From positions 1 through 23,810 of IMG/VR virus record IMGVR_UViG_3300049847_000195: 23,810 nt of DNA; one strand, 5' to 3'. Positions 1,475 through 23,810 of the stretch are shown here, one piece after another (the stretch's first letter is position 1; every line of letters begins with the position of its first letter). Source of the stretch: a virus. Below the pieces are notes generated by a model that saw nothing but the letters and a program-made list of their open reading frames with translations, had not been told where the DNA came from and made no database searches. The position numbers and the translations under genes are program-made.

Positions 1475-2071
1475 CTACAGCGTCGAGGACACTTCGGAGT
1501 ATTCGATCTCGACAACAAGCCGCCCAACGCCACCGGCACCCATGGCGATCAAGTTCTGGACCATCAATCCTTCGTTGGCTTCGAGGCGAACAGGAACGCC
1601 TGAGTCCCTATTGAAGCACCGCTCGACAGAGAAGCCGTTTTTAGGAACAGCAGCGCCGGTCGCAAGCTCAGCGCACCAGCCTTGAAGAATACAGTCATTA
1701 GCTGTAGGAAGCGTGAATGTACCTGCCGTGAGTTGTGCTGTATCAGAGATGTTGATTCCACCAGCAACCGTAGCAGCAGCAGCCCCCCAACGCTTCGAGA
1801 TAGCACCAGATGTACCAATACCGGAATGAGGTGCCGTGTATCCACGGATAATCCACATCCCAAATCCGACTTCTTGCGCAGCCGTGAAGCCTGTCGTCGT
1901 GCGCCACGTCATTGCGACTCGGTGCACGAGGCACGACTTCGTGGTGCTCGTCCATCGGAACGCTGCGACCTGCCCGTTGGTCGTTCCGTTCCAGACGGCA
2001 ATGCCCGTCATCAATCCTGAAGACACACAGAGTTGGTAGGTCTGGTTGATCGGGTATGCGGGGAACGACAT
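1475..2071 (-). CDS. Putative virion/tail-associated protein, 198 aa
   Basis: A 198-residue protein starting with an ATG at 2071, lying between the head-tail adaptor and the edge-truncated tail gene, with gaps of 2 bases on each side. It is rich in Thr, Gly and Ala and appears all-beta, with short alternating hydrophobic strands such as YQLCVSSGLMTGIAVWNGT and a glycine-rich LIAMGAGGVGRLVVEIEYSEV end. I recall similar compact beta-sandwich proteins next to adaptors in environmental podovirus-like genomes, but no catalytic motif or named family is certain. Position in the structural cluster suggests a virion component at the neck or tail. No signal peptide or membrane segment is seen. Confidence 0.6.
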   Translation of the reverse strand: MSFPAYPINQTYQLCVSSGLMTGIAVWNGTTNGQVAAFRWTSTTKSCLVHRVAMTWRTTTGFTAAQEVGFGMWIIRGYTAPHSGIGTSGAISKRWGAAAATVAGGINISDTAQLTAGTFTLPTANDCILQGWCAELATGAAVPKNGFSVERCFNRDSGVPVRLEANEGLMVQNLIAMGAGGVGRLVVEIEYSEVSSTL

Positions 2072-2073
2072 GT

Positions 2074-2799
2074 CTACGGTCCTGTAATGGTGCCTGAGAA
2101 GATGATGCGCCCACGGTCAATCGGATAGTCCTGCACGGACCCTTCGATCTCGCCGAGGTCTGACTGCATCGCGCGGTCTTGGCGCACGGCAGACAGGAAC
2201 TCGGGCGACGTTTGCAGTTCAGCGAGCCGCTGCGACAGCGACCCCTGCTCCTCACGTTGCAGCCCGCGTGCGAACGCCATCAGGACGCGCACGAACAGAG
2301 CCTTCGTGTAGTCGGGGAACAGGATGTAGTCGCTGTCCGAAGTCAGATCGGCCCACTTCGCGCGGTATACGAGCGCCATAGCTCCAGTCGTCGTCGTACT
2401 TGGCACCGGGAACAGTTCCAAGTGCCGCACCGACGCGGTACTACCCGACGGCGTGGTATCGACGATCGCGTACATGTACGGATTGCCGGTCACACCGGAT
2501 GTCGTCGTACCGTTCTGGAGCGTTGCGATCGTCGCGTAGTCGCTCTCGGTGTAGTAGGCGTTCGCGCCAACACCTGCGAGCGTGATGACGCCGCCGAAGT
2601 CGTCTGGAGTCGTAACGTAAGATTGCGAGGCAACCGTGTCGCGCAGGGAGAACTTCCGCATCAAGAATCGCCACTTGCTCATGCCGCAGAAATGCGACCC
2701 GGCAAGGTTGACGAGTTCGAGCGTGTTCAGAACGGCATCGGGCCGACCACCGAGGGTCAACCGGATCCATTGCTCGCACTGTGTGACGGTGATTGCCAT
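2074..2799 (-). CDS. Head-tail adaptor (connector) protein
   Basis: A 241-residue mostly helical protein, the usual size of the podovirus adaptor that docks under the portal ring and closes the head after packaging. The N-terminal part, with WIRLTLGG, LELVNLAG and a following SKWRFLMRKF segment, matches the pattern of adaptor proteins, in which an early helix leads to a conserved Trp-rich WRFL-type stretch. A central beta-rich segment (residues about 60-145, including LELFPVPS and ALVYRAKWADL) is followed by helices (FVRVLMAFARGL, LSQRLAEL). It lies downstream of capsid and decoration genes, as expected for connector genes, and ends 2 bases before the next start. The ATG at 2799 lacks a strong Shine-Dalgarno sequence and follows a GC-rich hairpin. 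Family assignment is from pattern, not a search. Confidence 0.72.
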   Translation of the reverse strand: MAITVTQCEQWIRLTLGGRPDAVLNTLELVNLAGSHFCGMSKWRFLMRKFSLRDTVASQSYVTTPDDFGGVITLAGVGANAYYTESDYATIATLQNGTTTSGVTGNPYMYAIVDTTPSGSTASVRHLELFPVPSTTTTGAMALVYRAKWADLTSDSDYILFPDYTKALFVRVLMAFARGLQREEQGSLSQRLAELQTSPEFLSAVRQDRAMQSDLGEIEGSVQDYPIDRGRIIFSGTITGP

Positions 2800-2811
2800 G
2801 GTGTATGAGTA

Positions 2812-2841
2812 GCCCCAGCCCGCTGTGAGGCGAGCCGGGGC
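2812..2841 (-). other. GC-rich intergenic hairpin before the adaptor gene
   Basis: GCCCCAGC (2812-2819) faces GCCGGGGC (2834-2841), giving an 8-bp stem with one G-U pair and a 14-base loop in the leftward transcript. It sits in the 50-base gap between the decoration gene stop and the adaptor start. There is no U-tract after it on the minus strand, so it is not a standard intrinsic terminator. It could stabilise or process the upstream capsid-decoration mRNA or lower read-through to tail genes. Confidence 0.4.
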
Positions 2842-2849
2842 GTTTCAAA

Positions 2850-3341
2850 TCACGGAGCGATGGCGAGGCCGGGAGGGCGACCGTCGAAGAAGACGCGGAC
2901 ACGACCAGTCGTGGTCGCAATCTTCGTCATCCCGATCACCTTGGTCAGCGTCACGATCGCCGTCACTTCGCCAGTCAGCGCCGTGCCGTTGGTTCCGATC
3001 TTGGAACCAATCGTCGCGGAACTGGTGGCGAGGTTGAGGATCGTGTCGCCGAAGAGGCGGAACCGACCGGACGCGCCGGATGCGATGGCCTCTTGTGCGA
3101 CCAAGTGGAAGAACCCAGCAGCAGCCAAGTTCCCCGCCACGGTCGGCGCGATCACTTGCGTGTACTCGCCAGTCGTTGCGCTGACGCCAGCCGAAGACTT
3201 GTCCAGCATCACGAGGTCACCCTTGACGAGCGCGCCTCCTGTGCCGTTCTTCAACTGACAGTCGATGCCCCTGACGATGCCAGGGTACTGCTCATCAGCG
3301 AGTACCAGAGCTTCGCCTTCACTTGCTAGTCGGAAGTTCAT
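2850..3341 (-). CDS. Capsid decoration-like protein, copy 2
   Basis: A 163-residue, Gly/Ala/Thr-rich, beta-dominated protein with an excellent ribosome binding site (GGAGGT, 6 bases before the ATG at 3341). The segment LVKGDLVMLDKSSAG (residues about 38-52) has the same pattern as ALGDLIMLDMNNAA in the adjacent upstream gene, and both proteins end with a strand followed by FDG and a short Gly/Pro-rich tail, so the two are probably tandem paralogues. The GDLVML-type segment and small beta-barrel style recall phage head decoration or head-fibre proteins encoded right after the major capsid gene. It has no catalytic residues or membrane segment. Virion role is inferred from location and composition. 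Confidence 0.6.
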   Translation of the reverse strand: MNFRLASEGEALVLADEQYPGIVRGIDCQLKNGTGGALVKGDLVMLDKSSAGVSATTGEYTQVIAPTVAGNLAAAGFFHLVAQEAIASGASGRFRLFGDTILNLATSSATIGSKIGTNGTALTGEVTAIVTLTKVIGMTKIATTTGRVRVFFDGRPPGLAIAP

Positions 3342-3353
3342 GTGGACCTCCGA

Positions 3354-3878
3354 TTAGCTCAACAGCGGGTTGACTCCGAGGCCATTGATGCCATCGAAGA
3401 TGATCTGGTAGTTACCAGCAACGCCTCCGTTGGGTTCCCAGACTTTTCCAAGAACCTTCTTTCCTGCTGACACACCAGCCGAAAGCGTTTTCACGGCAGT
3501 CGTGCCAACGAGGTCGAGTCCGATCGTAGCAGCAGTCGAGGTCAAACTCGCCTTCTTGACGATACCTTGGAACTGGACCTTGACGCCGGTTGATGCGGCA
3601 CCTGCTCCACCGAGCAAGTCAACGACGATCCCGAACCAGTGTCCGCTGACGGTGGTGGTGCCACTCAATCCGCCGACGCCGATGACGTTCGGAAGCACAG
3701 CCAGCGAAAGCGGACTCAGGATGTTGCCAGGAATCAACGAGGTATTGGCCGCGTTGTTCATGTCAAGCATGATGAGATCGCCAAGCGCAAGCGTAGTGCC
3801 TGTGTTGTTGACAACGACACCGAAGGTGTCTTTCGGGAACGGGCCATAGCCCGGTCCCATCACATCTTGAAGTTCCAT
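3354..3878 (-). CDS. Capsid decoration-like protein, copy 1
   Basis: A 174-residue beta-rich protein directly downstream of the major capsid gene, 21 bases after its stop, with an AAAGGAAA ribosome binding site before the ATG at 3878. Residues about 31-45 (ALGDLIMLDMNNAA) match the pattern in the next gene, and the C-terminal YQIIFDGINGLG parallels VRVFFDGRPPGLA there. The protein is low in charge and rich in Gly, Thr, Val and Leu, as in small capsid-surface proteins. A head decoration or capsid-stabilising role is the best inference; a head-fibre base is possible. It is not a protease: no catalytic Ser-His-Asp pattern is visible. Confidence 0.6.
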   Translation of the reverse strand: MELQDVMGPGYGPFPKDTFGVVVNNTGTTLALGDLIMLDMNNAANTSLIPGNILSPLSLAVLPNVIGVGGLSGTTTVSGHWFGIVVDLLGGAGAASTGVKVQFQGIVKKASLTSTAATIGLDLVGTTAVKTLSAGVSAGKKVLGKVWEPNGGVAGNYQIIFDGINGLGVNPLLS

Positions 3879-3899
3879 CTGTTCAGTTTCCTTTCCCGA

Positions 3900-5084
3900 T
3901 CACGGGATGTTTGCGGTCGGGTAAACGATCCCGTGAGTCCGACGCTTGCGCGCCCACAGGTTGCTCATGGTCTCGAAGAAGATTGCGATGCGGTTCGGGT
4001 TGCCGTACTGCGACTGCGGATCGCTCGGGCGCATGAACCAGTCCTCCTTCACCACCAAGTCGAGATCGTTCGAGTTGATGAGGAAGTATCGCGGACCAGC
4101 GTTCGTGTTCGACGTGCTGGTTTCCGAGCCGTACGCACCGCTCGTGCCGGTCGGGTAGATCGACGCCGTGGTGAGCAGCGCGACAGACACGACAGGAACA
4201 CCAGCGTACGTCGGGCGACCACCGTAGGCGTCGCTGGGGGTGTCCCAACGGTCCTGCGAGTTGCGGCAGAGCTGCTTGAGCTTCACCGTGCCTTCTGGCG
4301 AGCAGGCAATGAACATCTGCGCGGGCAGAAGGCCACTGTTGTCGTCGAAGTACTGCTTGTTGGTCGGAGGAGCCTTGAAGTTCAGCTTCTCGTACGCGAG
4401 GTCGAACGCCGCGATCAGGTTCGACGGCGACGCGACGTTCACGTTGTTGTACGAGAACCGTTGCGGCGCGTAGTTCGAGAACCCGGTCGTGGTCGCGGCG
4501 GTCATGCCCTTCAAGATCGTCCACGCGGTCGTGCCGGTGGCAGTCGTGTTGGGAAGACCGTTCGTGAACTCGTTGACGAGAGCCGGAATCGAGTACGGGT
4601 TTTTGCCCGACGCGCCTTCCATGTCAGCCGAGATCGGCTGCGCCCACAGGTTGTCGTCGATCTTGTTGGCAAGGTCGATGTTCATTTCCTGGTAGTCGTT
4701 GTCCTTCATCGTCTTGTAGGTCTGGAAACCGCCATCGGTTCCAACAGACCCACCAGCGTTGAGGGCGCGAATGCGCTCGTCCCACGCGATGTGGGTGCGC
4801 ATGATTCGCCAGTACGCGCTCGCCATGACGCCCGTTTCGGTGATCGCCGGAGTCGTCGAGTCGAGGATGCCGATGTTCTCCGCACGCGGAGTCAGCGACA
4901 GCAGAAGTTGGTCAGTGAGGTACTGACCGCCCTTGACGACGCGCGACATCGGTTTGCCGCGCGCCAGGAAGCCTTGCGTCTCGTAGTTGAGGCGCGACAC
5001 GGCTGCGTGTCGAGCCCCCGGCCCCGTCATCAGGTTCGGGCCAGTGTCCAGCACGAAGCTGGCATAGGTGCTTGTAATCGTCAT
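3900..5084 (-). CDS. Major capsid protein (HK97-fold type)
   Basis: A 394-residue protein immediately downstream of the scaffold gene, the standard place for the major capsid protein. The N-terminal arm (GARHAAVSRLNYETQGFLARG), a long helix region around residues 85-150 (WRIMRTHIAWDERIRAL, then NIDLANKIDDNLWAQ), a middle A-domain-like region and a C-terminal segment with YFLINSNDLDLVVKEDWFMR and NPNRIAIFFETMSNLWARKRR fit capsid proteins of podovirus-like phages. No prohead protease is encoded nearby and the protein begins directly with its arm, so cleavage is not suggested. The ATG at 5084 follows AAGGA at about 6 bases, part of which lies in a hairpin arm. Assignment rests on size, gene order and pattern rather than a profile search. 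Confidence 0.82.
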   Translation of the reverse strand: MTITSTYASFVLDTGPNLMTGPGARHAAVSRLNYETQGFLARGKPMSRVVKGGQYLTDQLLLSLTPRAENIGILDSTTPAITETGVMASAYWRIMRTHIAWDERIRALNAGGSVGTDGGFQTYKTMKDNDYQEMNIDLANKIDDNLWAQPISADMEGASGKNPYSIPALVNEFTNGLPNTTATGTTAWTILKGMTAATTTGFSNYAPQRFSYNNVNVASPSNLIAAFDLAYEKLNFKAPPTNKQYFDDNSGLLPAQMFIACSPEGTVKLKQLCRNSQDRWDTPSDAYGGRPTYAGVPVVSVALLTTASIYPTGTSGAYGSETSTSNTNAGPRYFLINSNDLDLVVKEDWFMRPSDPQSQYGNPNRIAIFFETMSNLWARKRRTHGIVYPTANIP

Positions 5085-16210: not shown

Positions 16211-16429
16211 TCATTTGATCCGCTCCACCGTGCTCCGCACGCGCAGCCACTCGCCATCCTGCTTGATGTACTTCGGAACGTAGTCATCGCCTACGTCGTG
16301 CCAGTGTGCCGACCGCTTGCAGTACGGCAACGGCGCATCATCCAGCGAGGCCGCATGGAGGCCGGTGTGGCCAGCCTCCAAGTCACACACGATCGACTCG
16401 GAGTATGGCGGTGACGCGACGCACCTCAC
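16211..16429 (-). CDS. Small Cys/His protein, 72 aa
   Basis: A 72-residue protein starting at GTG 16429, which overlaps the TGA of the GroES-like gene (GTGA). Residues C3, C15, H21, H25 and C37 could bind zinc: the CDLEAGHTGLH segment has the C-x5-H-x3-H spacing seen in small phage and actinobacterial proteins with a Cys...GHxGxH pattern. The C-terminal part is hydrophilic and mixed (KYIKQDGEWLRVRSTVERIK). The role is unknown; coupling to the co-chaperonin gene suggests co-expression only. Confidence 0.58.
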   Translation of the reverse strand: MRCVASPPYSESIVCDLEAGHTGLHAASLDDAPLPYCKRSAHWHDVGDDYVPKYIKQDGEWLRVRSTVERIK

Positions 16430-16752
16430 GGTGCGGCCTCGTCATCCCTCACACTCGCAAGGATCGACTTCTCCTGGATCAAGATGTACCGATCCTGTGC
16501 ATCCTCAACCTCGCACGCAAACTGGTTCCCCGCCACGTACACCCGCTCCCCCACCTTCAAGTCCATCGGCATCCGATACCCCGGAACCGCATCCGTCGCC
16601 GCGCCCGGACCAACCGCAACCACGGTCCCCGTACTCAGCCTCGTCCCCTTCACCAGCAAAATCCCCCCCTTCGTCACCGTCTCCTCACGGTCCATCCGCA
16701 CCAGCACCATCTCGTTCCTAGGAACCAACACCTCACCCTGGACTGCAACCAT
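16426..16752 (-). CDS. groES: GroES-like co-chaperonin (Cpn10)
   Basis: A 108-residue protein (E. coli GroES has 97). The ATG at 16752 is chosen because AAGGAG lies 6 bases upstream; an ATG at 16758 would sit directly against it. The Cpn10 order is visible: EMVLVRMDREE for the first strands, a mobile-loop-like segment with the hydrophobic ILL (31-33) after GG in place of the usual IVL, then TGTVVAVGPG (41-50), KVGERVYV (66-73) and YILIQEKSILA (89-99). Phage co-chaperonins such as T4 gp31 cap host GroEL for capsid folding. No GroEL is encoded in the window, so partnership with host GroEL is inferred. Confidence 0.8.
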   Translation of the reverse strand: MVAVQGEVLVPRNEMVLVRMDREETVTKGGILLVKGTRLSTGTVVAVGPGAATDAVPGYRMPMDLKVGERVYVAGNQFACEVEDAQDRYILIQEKSILASVRDDEAAP

Positions 16753-16981
16753 CGCCATCTCCTTGATTAGGACGCGGACCGACCGATGGACCACCCACCG
16801 GCTCGTTCCCCGTCACCTCCATCAGCGCCGCCCGCAACGCCTTCGAGTACGACCGCACCCCATACCTCGCCATCGCCGCGCGCAACACTCCCTCGAAACG
16901 CGGCCACTCCACAACCATCGTCACCGAGCGCCACGACGAGCCATCAGCGCGATCGACGGGGACGCGACGGGGAGGCCTCAT
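16733..16981 (-). CDS. Unknown small protein, 82 aa
   Basis: An 82-residue protein starting with ATG 16981, overlapping the start of the GroES-like gene by 20 bases. Residues 20-60 (VVEWPRFEGVLRAAMARYGVRSYSKALRAALMEVTG) are helical and amphipathic; the rest is Arg, Pro and Gly-rich. The first bases of the gene are one copy of an 18-bp direct repeat whose other copy lies 26 bases upstream and encodes the same MRPPRR start. No family is recognised; a ribbon-helix-helix-type regulator was considered but is not supported. Confidence 0.5.
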   Translation of the reverse strand: MRPPRRVPVDRADGSSWRSVTMVVEWPRFEGVLRAAMARYGVRSYSKALRAALMEVTGNEPVGGPSVGPRPNQGDGDGCSPG

Positions 16982-17963: not shown

Positions 17964-18042
17964 GCCAGAACGCTACCCCTTCCGCGCTCCCCTTGCAACC
18001 CTACAGTCGACGTATCAACGCATCCGGATGCCTCGTTTCCTT

Positions 18043-18240
18043 GTCTACTATGTCTACCTTGTCTACCTCTGGGGGGCGCGCCCATATACGTTCTCATAGC
18101 GTAACGTCACACTCTCTCTCGCTACATTACTACCACAGAGGTATACATAGTAGACAAGAATAGCGTAAGCGTATGAGGAGAAAGGAGTTATGGCGTGTCT
18201 ACCTCGCTGAACAGGTAGACCGAGGTAGACCGAGGTAGAC
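18043..18240. repeat. Phased GTCTAC/GTAGAC array, candidate operator or origin
   Basis: GTCTAC occurs at 18043, 18052 and 18061 (9-base period) and at 18197; its reverse complement GTAGAC occurs at 18150, 18215, 18225 and 18235 (the last three at a 10-base period, as GGTAGACCGA units). The two outer clusters face each other as inverted arrays. TTGTCTACTATGT near 18042 is nearly matched in reverse by ACATAGTAGACAAG at 18145. Such phased sites are typical of iterons or cooperative operators. The array lies at the switch point between leftward and rightward genes. Confidence 0.7.
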
Positions 18241-18332: not shown

Positions 18333-18422
18333 TGTGTTGATACCATGCGCGCGTGAGCCGATACTTCTGGTGTCGGGGTTGCCCCCGGCTGACCTCTCAA
18401 CCTAGCCCGCGCCGCCCGGATC

Positions 18423-21927: not shown

Positions 21928-22143
21928 ATGAACACCGACACCGCCCGCCAGACCCGCTACCGCGCAGGCCCGACCTACGCCGCCCGTACCGACACGCCCG
22001 AGTGGCGTGCGGCCCAGGCTGAGAAGATGCGTAAGTGGCGCTCTGGTCCCAAGGGTCAGGCGTGGCTAGCCAAGCAACGCCAGAAGCGAGCCGACCTGCG
22101 GGCGCGCAAGCTCGCCGTGCTCAAGAAGGCTGGGCTGGCATAA
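21928..22143 (+). CDS. Small basic protein, 71 aa
   Basis: A 71-residue, strongly basic protein, about one third Arg and Lys, with helical arrangement (EWRAAQAEKMRKWRSGPKGQ, then AKQRQKRADLRARKLAVLKK). The SGPKGQAW segment is like small phage proteins with repeated SPKG-type units. It probably binds nucleic acid. Its 3' end overlaps the 3' end of the convergent primase/helicase gene by 23 bases. The ATG at 21928 has only a weak GGTGG upstream. Confidence 0.55.
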   Translation: MNTDTARQTRYRAGPTYAARTDTPEWRAAQAEKMRKWRSGPKGQAWLAKQRQKRADLRARKLAVLKKAGLA

Positions 22144-23810
22144 GGCGAGCGCGACGGCGTGACCCGTTGCCTTCGACCTCGATGCGTACAGAGCCAATCA
22201 CGCGGTTCGCTGCTGCATTGAGGACGTTGCGACCGAACGCGGTACGACGGCCACGGTCGGTAGACTGCGCGGTCTTGCGGGCGAAGAAGTCGTGCTTGTC
22301 GGCAAGCTCGAACAGGTCTTGAGCAGAAACCCACCACTCGGCGTTGGTGTCGTACCAAAGGGCGACGAACTGGCGCAGCTCGCTGGAGAAGTCGTCAGTC
22401 GTGCCACGCCACGCGCGCAGGTTGGTAAGCCACTCGGGGTAACCGGCCACGCCCATGATGCCGCCCGTGATCGAGGCCCAACGCTCGAAGCCGCCGAAAC
22501 CAACCGATCCAAGCGGACGGCCCGACTCGCGCCATGCTTGGACGAGTCCGAGCAGGGCGCCCAGGACACGGGGGCGCGAGGCTTCGACGTAGGCGCGCAG
22601 CAATGGGTGGCGGTAGTCCTGCCGGTCCTCGGGCGTCTCGGTGTCGGGCTGGAGCGAGATCGGAACGACGCGCTTCGATATTTCGCCTGTAGCGTGGACG
22701 TTGTTGCCGGTGCCAACGATCACGGCACCGTTGGGAAGCGGGAGCATCCGAGACTTGCCAAGCTCACGGCCACGGTAGACGGAGCTGGTGAGCAGCGAGG
22801 CGAGGGCTGGCGAGTCCACGAACTCGGTCAGGTTGTCCAGGTGCAGGACCGCATCGCCGCAAAGCAGGGACGCCGTGATCCGCTTCTCGCGCTCTTCCTC
22901 ACGGACGCCGAGTTGCATCGCTGGGGTGGGCTGGCCGATCACGCCGCAGCCGAGGACGATCTCGGCGAGCTTGGTCTTGCCGGAGCGTTCGATGGGCGAG
23001 CCGATCAGGTGCATCGGGACCGGTTCCAAGATGCACGGGCGCAGGATCACGGTGAGGAGCAGACCGAAGTAGTTGGCACGGTCGGCGGGTGCCGCGAATG
23101 GGAAATCGCAGACCAGATCCTCAAGCACCGCGCGTGCCTCGGCGAGCGGCAACGGTTCGGGCACGGGGCAGGTCGAGAACACGCCCGAATCGGCATTCCA
23201 GCCCAACTTGGCAGGCATGAAATCGTCCCCGACGCAGACCGGATAGGTCGCAACGTACCGCAACTCACGGATGCTGCCGCCTGTCGCCGCGTACTCCAGC
23301 AGCATCGCCGCGTAGTCCCGTGTACAGGTACGGTAAACGATCGTTGGCTCGTCGCCCTCGACCCGAGGCGGCTTGGCTGCGATCAGGCGCACGGAGGCGT
23401 CCACAATCGAGCGTAAGCGATCCGGGCTGACTTGGACGAACGACCCATCGGACAGCTCGCCGATAGCGCCTGCGCGACGGTAGAGAGCCGCAGGGTCAAT
23501 GGCGGCGAGGACCATCGAGCAGAACGTGTTGTTCCCCTGCTCGACATACTCGCCATCGGGCATGATGTGGGAGCCGGGGACGAGGACGTTGGCGGGCGTG
23601 TGGCGTGTGGCGGCGGTCTTCTTGGGCGCTGGACTGGTCCGTTCCGGTGCCTTCCTCGGCTTCTTAGCCCCCGCCTTGAGCCCGGACTGGATCGTCTTGG
23701 CCGCCTCGGCTTCGGGCAGACCTGCTATAGCAGCCGACGCGGCAAGCTCGGACTCGACGCGCTCGGCTGGCAACGCGCCGCCGGCAACGAGCTGGCCCAG
23801 GCTGTACGCC
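22121..23810 (-). CDS. Phage primase/helicase, C-terminal part (5' partial)
   Basis: The frame is open from the right edge, with a possible TTG at 23773, but in-frame residues upstream of it (AYSLGQLVAGGA) continue the PriCT-like pattern, so the gene starts outside. About 562 residues are visible. The opening region LxxAAxxxGLPEAEAxxTIxSGLKAG is the link that follows prim-pol domains in phage primases. From about residue 270, SPIERSGKT is a Walker A-type loop, LHLDN (about 322) the Walker B, TGNN (about 367) sensor 1, and KRVVPISL (about 379) an arginine-finger-like region, all in the order of phage D5-like/primase-associated AAA+ helicases. It would unwind and prime DNA at replication. It is divergent in direction from the early cluster and convergent with the 71-aa gene. 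Confidence 0.82.
   Translation of the reverse strand, partial: AYSLGQLVAGGALPAERVESELAASAAIAGLPEAEAAKTIQSGLKAGAKKPRKAPERTSPAPKKTAATRHTPANVLVPGSHIMPDGEYVEQGNNTFCSMVLAAIDPAALYRRAGAIGELSDGSFVQVSPDRLRSIVDASVRLIAAKPPRVEGDEPTIVYRTCTRDYAAMLLEYAATGGSIRELRYVATYPVCVGDDFMPAKLGWNADSGVFSTCPVPEPLPLAEARAVLEDLVCDFPFAAPADRANYFGLLLTVILRPCILEPVPMHLIGSPIERSGKTKLAEIVLGCGVIGQPTPAMQLGVREEEREKRITASLLCGDAVLHLDNLTEFVDSPALASLLTSSVYRGRELGKSRMLPLPNGAVIVGTGNNVHATGEISKRVVPISLQPDTETPEDRQDYRHPLLRAYVEASRPRVLGALLGLVQAWRESGRPLGSVGFGGFERWASITGGIMGVAGYPEWLTNLRAWRGTTDDFSSELRQFVALWYDTNAEWWVSAQDLFELADKHDFFARKTAQSTDRGRRTAFGRNVLNAAANRVIGSVRIEVEGNGSRRRARLMPAQPS

Follow-up and report, generated by a model that had tools for sequence, protein, structure and literature searches.

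Which protein reads a phased array of short repeats in the divergent region of an uncultured phage, and what is the array for? The stretch analysed, hereafter the window, comprises 23,810 nucleotides (IMG/VR record IMGVR_UViG_3300049847_000195, positions 1 to 23,810), and an earlier sequence-only reading had described eight GTCTAC/GTAGAC hexamers at 18043-18240, suggesting either cooperative sites for a replication initiator (iterons) or the operator of an early/late switch. All eight exact sites were confirmed (18043, 18052, 18061 and 18197 on the forward strand; 18150, 18215, 18225 and 18235 on the reverse), as were the steps of 9 bases between the three leading forward sites and 10 bases between the three final reverse sites. 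A ninth, degenerate site had been missed: GTATAC at 18141, in register 9 bases before the GTAGAC at 18150, making the middle a second stepped set that faces the first.

The array thereby takes the layout >9>9> 80 <9< 47 >18<10<10<. Its left inner iteron set consists of three GTCTAC copies at a 9-base step (18043-18066, forward strand), a set and step found again in L008, L042, L043, L319 and other loci, and its right inner set (18141-18155, reverse strand) of GTATAC, with one mismatch, and GTAGAC, also at a 9-base step, the arms at 18040-18059 and 18139-18158 being 95% complementary. Between them lies an inner spacer (18067-18140, no strand), presumed to be the melting region. A single outer site, an exact hexamer at 18197-18202 on the forward strand, stands 47 bases off the inner set, where 42-45 is canonical by comparison with other arrays, and is followed by a right outer set of three GTAGAC at a 10-base step (18215-18240, reverse strand), outer sets in other GTCTAC arrays being stepped at 10-12. 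A GTCGAC, which departs from the word at one base and lies 37 bases to the left of the inner set (18006-18011, no strand), is a weak candidate for a relic of the left outer set.

The hexamer is concentrated in the array: 19 copies were counted across the window relative to 7.5 expected in shuffles, with eight inside 200 bases and approximately 0.5 per kb in the remainder. No other hexamer in the window clusters as densely, and a cluster of eight for any hexamer arose in one of 100 simulated windows, a figure that does not yet count orientation and phase. When facing stepped arrays were scored with any hexamer allowed, the window scored 12 and the maximum in 100 simulated windows was 8, with 92 giving none; overlapping hexamers of the same repeats aside, it is the single such array in the whole window. 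The GTCTAC array is therefore real and not a product of chance.

Positions 18084-18150 are 58% A+T in a contig of 62% G+C, placing them at the 99.7th percentile of 67-base stretches. A GC-skew minimum had been predicted near 18.1 kb, and the cumulative minimum was indeed found at 18136, within the inner spacer, but it is flat to ~19.5 kb and coincides with the divergence of the genes. In relatives, the skew minimum roughly fitted the array in G022 and lay off it in G020 and G021, and because the latter two disagree, GC skew was given little weight.

Searches of IMG/VR with the pattern GTCTACnnnGTCTACnnnGTCTAC retrieved 75 stretches, 19 of which carried stepped arrays in both orientations, relative to one of the 120 listed matches to a reversed-word control, these being a sample of at least 120 matches that were mostly one-directional. 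Raw pattern counts thus fail to discriminate the word from its reverse, whereas the facing geometry does. The spacings recurred in unrelated contigs, with the inner sets, at a 9-base step, separated by 97-113 bases, or by 56-81 in some contigs and in the window; an outer site followed after 42-45 bases, and an outer set at a 10-12 step after another 14-24. The sets pointed either towards or away from each other. Helicase genes adjoined these arrays, namely those of D5_N (L008, L016, L047, L062 and L320, with L047 and L062 assigned via homology to L008), VapE (L018, L054, L061, L313 and the L319-L330 prophages, alongside PolA, VRR_NUC and SNF2 genes), Cch-like DUF927/HTH_56 (L009, L231, L245, L302) and DUF5906 (L040) types. 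Of 20 records, the window being one of the 20, 13 contained DUF5906 and one more contained DUF927. Searches of the literature on GTCTAC/GTAGAC as an iteron, or on VapE origins, found nothing relevant.

L319, L321, L323, L324 and L327-L330 carry low-GC prophage replication modules (PolA, VapE, origin, VRR_NUC, SNF2) that are near-identical to one another. Close to these prophages are L328, in which the outer sites have changed from GTCTAC to GTCAAC, and Clostridioides phage phiCDKH02, in which all sites have, such that coexisting GTCTAC and GTCAAC versions form a natural iteron-switch series. Eleven other stretches (L199, L206, L209, L210, L226, L238, L262, L263, L268, L272 and L273) are scaffolds of 'Terrabacteria group bacterium ANGP1' assemblies, where facing GTCTACnnn arrays of ~3-8 forward copies, 27-58 bases and 2-6 reverse copies occur on many scaffolds of three genomes; dispersed in this way, the arrays resemble a family of genomic repeats or hairpins more than a single origin. 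In L028 (8583-8755) and L053 (6937-7133), facing GTCTAC arrays fall within frames for RepA-like AAA_25 helicases, towards the 3' end, where coding and iteron function may overlap. A Rhodobacteraceae MAG (L216, 4673-4940) holds a dense mix of GTCTAC, GTAGAC, GTATAC and GTAAAC, stepped by 9 bases and running both ways, which suggests a reader tolerant of GTnnAC variants. Near the GTCTAC array of L072, a large terminase related to that of the window (2027-4414, reverse strand) contains an intein-like Hint region.

The same plan was also encountered with other words. In named phages, where just the regions that follow a VapE or related helicase were surveyed, arrays of this geometry were built from GTCAAC (phiCDKH02), GGAACA (Ruegeria phage V18), TGCAAC (Paenibacillus phage AJG77) and CGGGTA (Methanosarcinales virus vir525), and none was found in the three Bacteroides/Phocaeicola phages of that survey. 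Javan431, a VapE streptococcal satellite of the PICI type, has a facing array, GTGTAGAC / GGCTACAC, after VapE that is near-identical to the window word. A further survey assumed no word and took 49 loci by homology to the window helicase alone; 26 of these harboured a facing stepped array, relative to none of 200 shuffled regions, and the arrays were no more than a few hundred bases from where the helicase match ends (3'). Here the words were diverse (GCCCAA, CCTTGC, GGAACC, GGGAAC, AGACCC, ATTCAC, ACACTC and others) whilst the spacings persisted, and GTCTAC was accordingly rejected as a universal word. Several 56-58% identical relatives (L351-L356) showed no array with this method, and none turned up when the whole records of three of these were checked. 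The sequence-only reading had taken absence of the hexamer from the same locus in related genomes as grounds for its own dismissal, a rule that would have misled, as the word is not conserved at that locus among close relatives whilst the geometry is kept.

No initiator had been recognisable to the sequence-only reading, which looked instead to a small protein of the rightward cluster as the ligand. This was mistaken, as a candidate is encoded at 22121-23809 on the reverse strand: a Prim-Pol/SF3-like primase-helicase of 562 amino acids, a putative initiator by homology and by fold match to SaPI5 PriRep1. The frame matches phage primase/helicase families, including phrog_19930 (DNA polymerase/primase). 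Relatives were sought with a three-sequence alignment led by the window helicase, a five-sequence version being too divergent to scan with, and 77 loci were returned, 12 of them 56-60% identical over the length of the window helicase. These relatives are full-length proteins of 762-812 amino acids with an N-terminal Prim-Pol domain in all four of those tested, from which it follows that the contig end truncates the window copy. Other routes to relatives were unproductive, in that neither the leftward 159-aa protein nor the terminase, each scanned singly against IMG/VR, had any relatives there, and megablast against named phages gave no match.

Among known structures, SaPI5 PriRep1 with double-stranded DNA matched the fold of the window helicase model best (7pds, E 5e-7), although TM-scores were low (~0.3-0.45) despite that E-value, and the next structural matches were other D5-like helicases and SCCmec Cch. 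The AlphaFold model placed, with good confidence, a helix-helix-helix-strand-strand unit at the C-terminus, corresponding to a winged helix (helices 475-489, 496-505 and 518-533; strands 541-546 and 553-558) encoded at 22124-22387 on the reverse strand, which the model and sequence comparison point to as the probable iteron reader. The N-terminally truncated window protein is thus a putative initiator of the Rep/D5/Cch (primase-)helicase kind with a predicted C-terminal DNA-binding domain.

If this winged helix reads the word, the two should drift together, and comparison of helicases is consistent with this. Between the window helicase and its close relatives the core is 66-74% identical and the C-terminal domain 34-52%. 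At core identities of 0.94-0.96, C-terminal identity was 0.84 where the word is the same (L362 with L363 and L374) and 0.63-0.66 where it differs (L367 with L369, L373, L376 and L383), these pairs being few and not independent, and pairs involving L391 and L347 having been left out because the frames taken for these two were wrong. As judged from these alignments, the predicted winged helix diverges jointly with the word.

The window array is unusual in one respect, namely its distance of 3.9 kb from the helicase gene (18240 versus 22121), in a divergent region, when in nearly all relatives with an array the helicase gene is followed directly by it on the 3' side. In the window, the helicase gene overlaps at its 3' end an open frame at 21928-22143, leaving no room for another array after it. 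No close relative of the window phage was found to carry this word at the corresponding locus; L350 alone has some GTAGAC sites, likewise displaced, 2.2 kb downstream. We treat adjacency to the initiator gene as usual rather than as defining the mechanism, because the corresponding element of the crenarchaeal plasmid pRN1 works when moved (PMC4234260).

The array is very probably a phage replication origin of the SaPI/PICI/Sfi21/A2 kind, driven by the phage's own Prim-Pol/helicase, and the iteron half of the sequence-only reading is to that extent well supported by geometry, recurrence and helicase linkage. Geometry, recurrence, linkage to the helicase family, the predicted winged helix and its joint drift with the word form the observed base of this reading; binding, melting, loading and bidirectional forks we infer by analogy with SaPI Rep, Cch2 and the PICI origins. 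SaPI Rep and SCCmec Cch2 are self-loading helicases whose C-terminal domain binds origin iterons (PMC7581432), and in PICI/SaPI origins two iteron sets flank an AT-rich region, cloned rep-ori segments being able to replicate (PMC6092414). By this analogy, the C-terminal winged helix would read the 9-base GTCTACnnn iterons, and the two facing inner sets would place two helicase assemblies head to head around the 75-base, relatively AT-rich spacer. ATP-driven action would then melt the spacer, one helicase ring would load per strand, and the primase domain would prime, with forks departing both ways; the probable role of the outer set, at a distance of ~45 bases, is to stabilise the complex or to regulate it.

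Comparison with known systems places the window within a recognisable kind. With the SaPI/PICI origins (PMC6092414, PMC7581432) it shares two sets of short iterons around an AT-richer spacer and a primase-helicase initiator with a C-terminal DNA-binding domain (predicted in the window), SaPI5 PriRep1 being the best fold match, but its origin is not directly 3' of rep, and it encodes a large terminase and portal- and capsid-like proteins matched in L349, which make it a phage and not a satellite. The window also encodes a GroES-like co-chaperonin (Cpn10, E 1.9e-14) at 16426-16794 on the reverse strand. The origins annotated in the records of Streptococcus phage Sfi21 (NC_000872) and Lactobacillus phage A2 (NC_004112), downstream of the primase/helicase gene, likewise have facing iterons at an 8-9-base step and an AT-rich spacer of similar length, though the words are AGTTAC and CGGGAG, respectively, and the hosts are Gram-positive. 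SCCmec Cch and Cch2 share self-loading DUF927- and D5-class helicases, the Cch2 C-terminal domain binding direct repeats, but the putative Cch2 origin has just three AAGTG iterons and the primase-polymerase is separate (PMC7581432). Plasmid pRN1 combines Prim-Pol, SF3 helicase and winged helix, and requires an inverted repeat (21-nt stem, 58-nt loop) 3' of its replication gene; it differs in being an archaeal plasmid whose element was interpreted as a stem-loop rather than as facing iterons (PMC4234260). The dimensions of that stem and loop equal those of two facing iteron pairs, and the element may act as the iterons of an origin instead of as a structural stem-loop. In phage P4, the alpha protein, a primase-helicase, itself reads the short type I iterons of ori and crr, as proposed here, although P4 differs in having two separate cis regions.

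The position of the array between diverging gene clusters, and the cooperative look of its phased sites, would also suit the operator of an early/late switch, at which a phage repressor or activator controls the leftward and rightward transcripts. A sigma-70-like match at 18337-18365 could be cited in its favour, but one such match against 0.5 expected is at chance level, and no repressor or regulator was identified among the small window proteins tested. In relatives, moreover, an array of this geometry follows the helicase gene closely on its 3' side, in many cases with co-directional genes to either side (VapE-VRR_NUC in L319-L330; VapE-SNF2 in L018 and L061) and not at divergent promoters, and the word varies with the helicase C-terminus, rendering this half of the sequence-only reading very improbable. 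That co-variation of word and C-terminus also tells against a separate small DNA-binding protein, such as HTH_17, that would read the sites and then recruit the helicase. HTH_17 genes do adjoin the array in some D5 phages (L008, L320, L217), but none was found among the window proteins tested, nor beside most arrays, and SaPI Rep and Cch2 bind iterons by the helicase C-terminal domain itself (PMC7581432); a separate reader is hence likewise very improbable.

Attachment sites and coding repeats fare worse still. Arm-type integrase sites and partition centromeres are also phased repeats, and one-directional 9-base arrays elsewhere look coding (L002, L003, L010), yet neither an integrase nor a Par gene was noticed in the window, the occurrence of both orientations and of 10-base steps speaks against a coding repeat, and the geometry matches that of origins, so that a tyrosine recombinase attachment site, a centromere or a coding repeat is scarcely credible. 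A different proposal adds to the origin explanation without replacing it, namely that the primase-helicase, in binding the origin, also represses the divergent promoters and couples replication to transcription. Origin-binding initiators often autoregulate, and the window origin, unlike those of its relatives, lies in a divergent region, but the helicase is not transcribed from there; we regard this second role as possible, albeit rather unlikely.

With the array read as a replication origin, an uncultured phage gains a concrete candidate origin and initiator. The origin plan was described in 2018 as shared by PICIs and 'no other known bacterial replicon' (PMC6092414); the kind of origin is thus already known, and our survey, which met it in many phages equipped with terminase, portal and capsid genes, indicates that among ordinary phages it is common. 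Geometry alone finds such origins even when the word is unknown. Whether facing-iteron origins of fixed geometry and drifting word are general in those phages of bacterial and archaeal hosts that carry Prim-Pol, D5, VapE or DUF927 helicases, with word and winged helix co-evolving closely enough for an origin code, is in our estimation evenly balanced. Should that be the case, origins would become callable in uncultured phages and the pRN1 stem-loop would be recast as facing iterons. The many pairs of word and winged helix offer ready natural data from which a DNA-recognition code might be derived, and they may have a bearing on whether given satellites and phages can use or block each other's origins.
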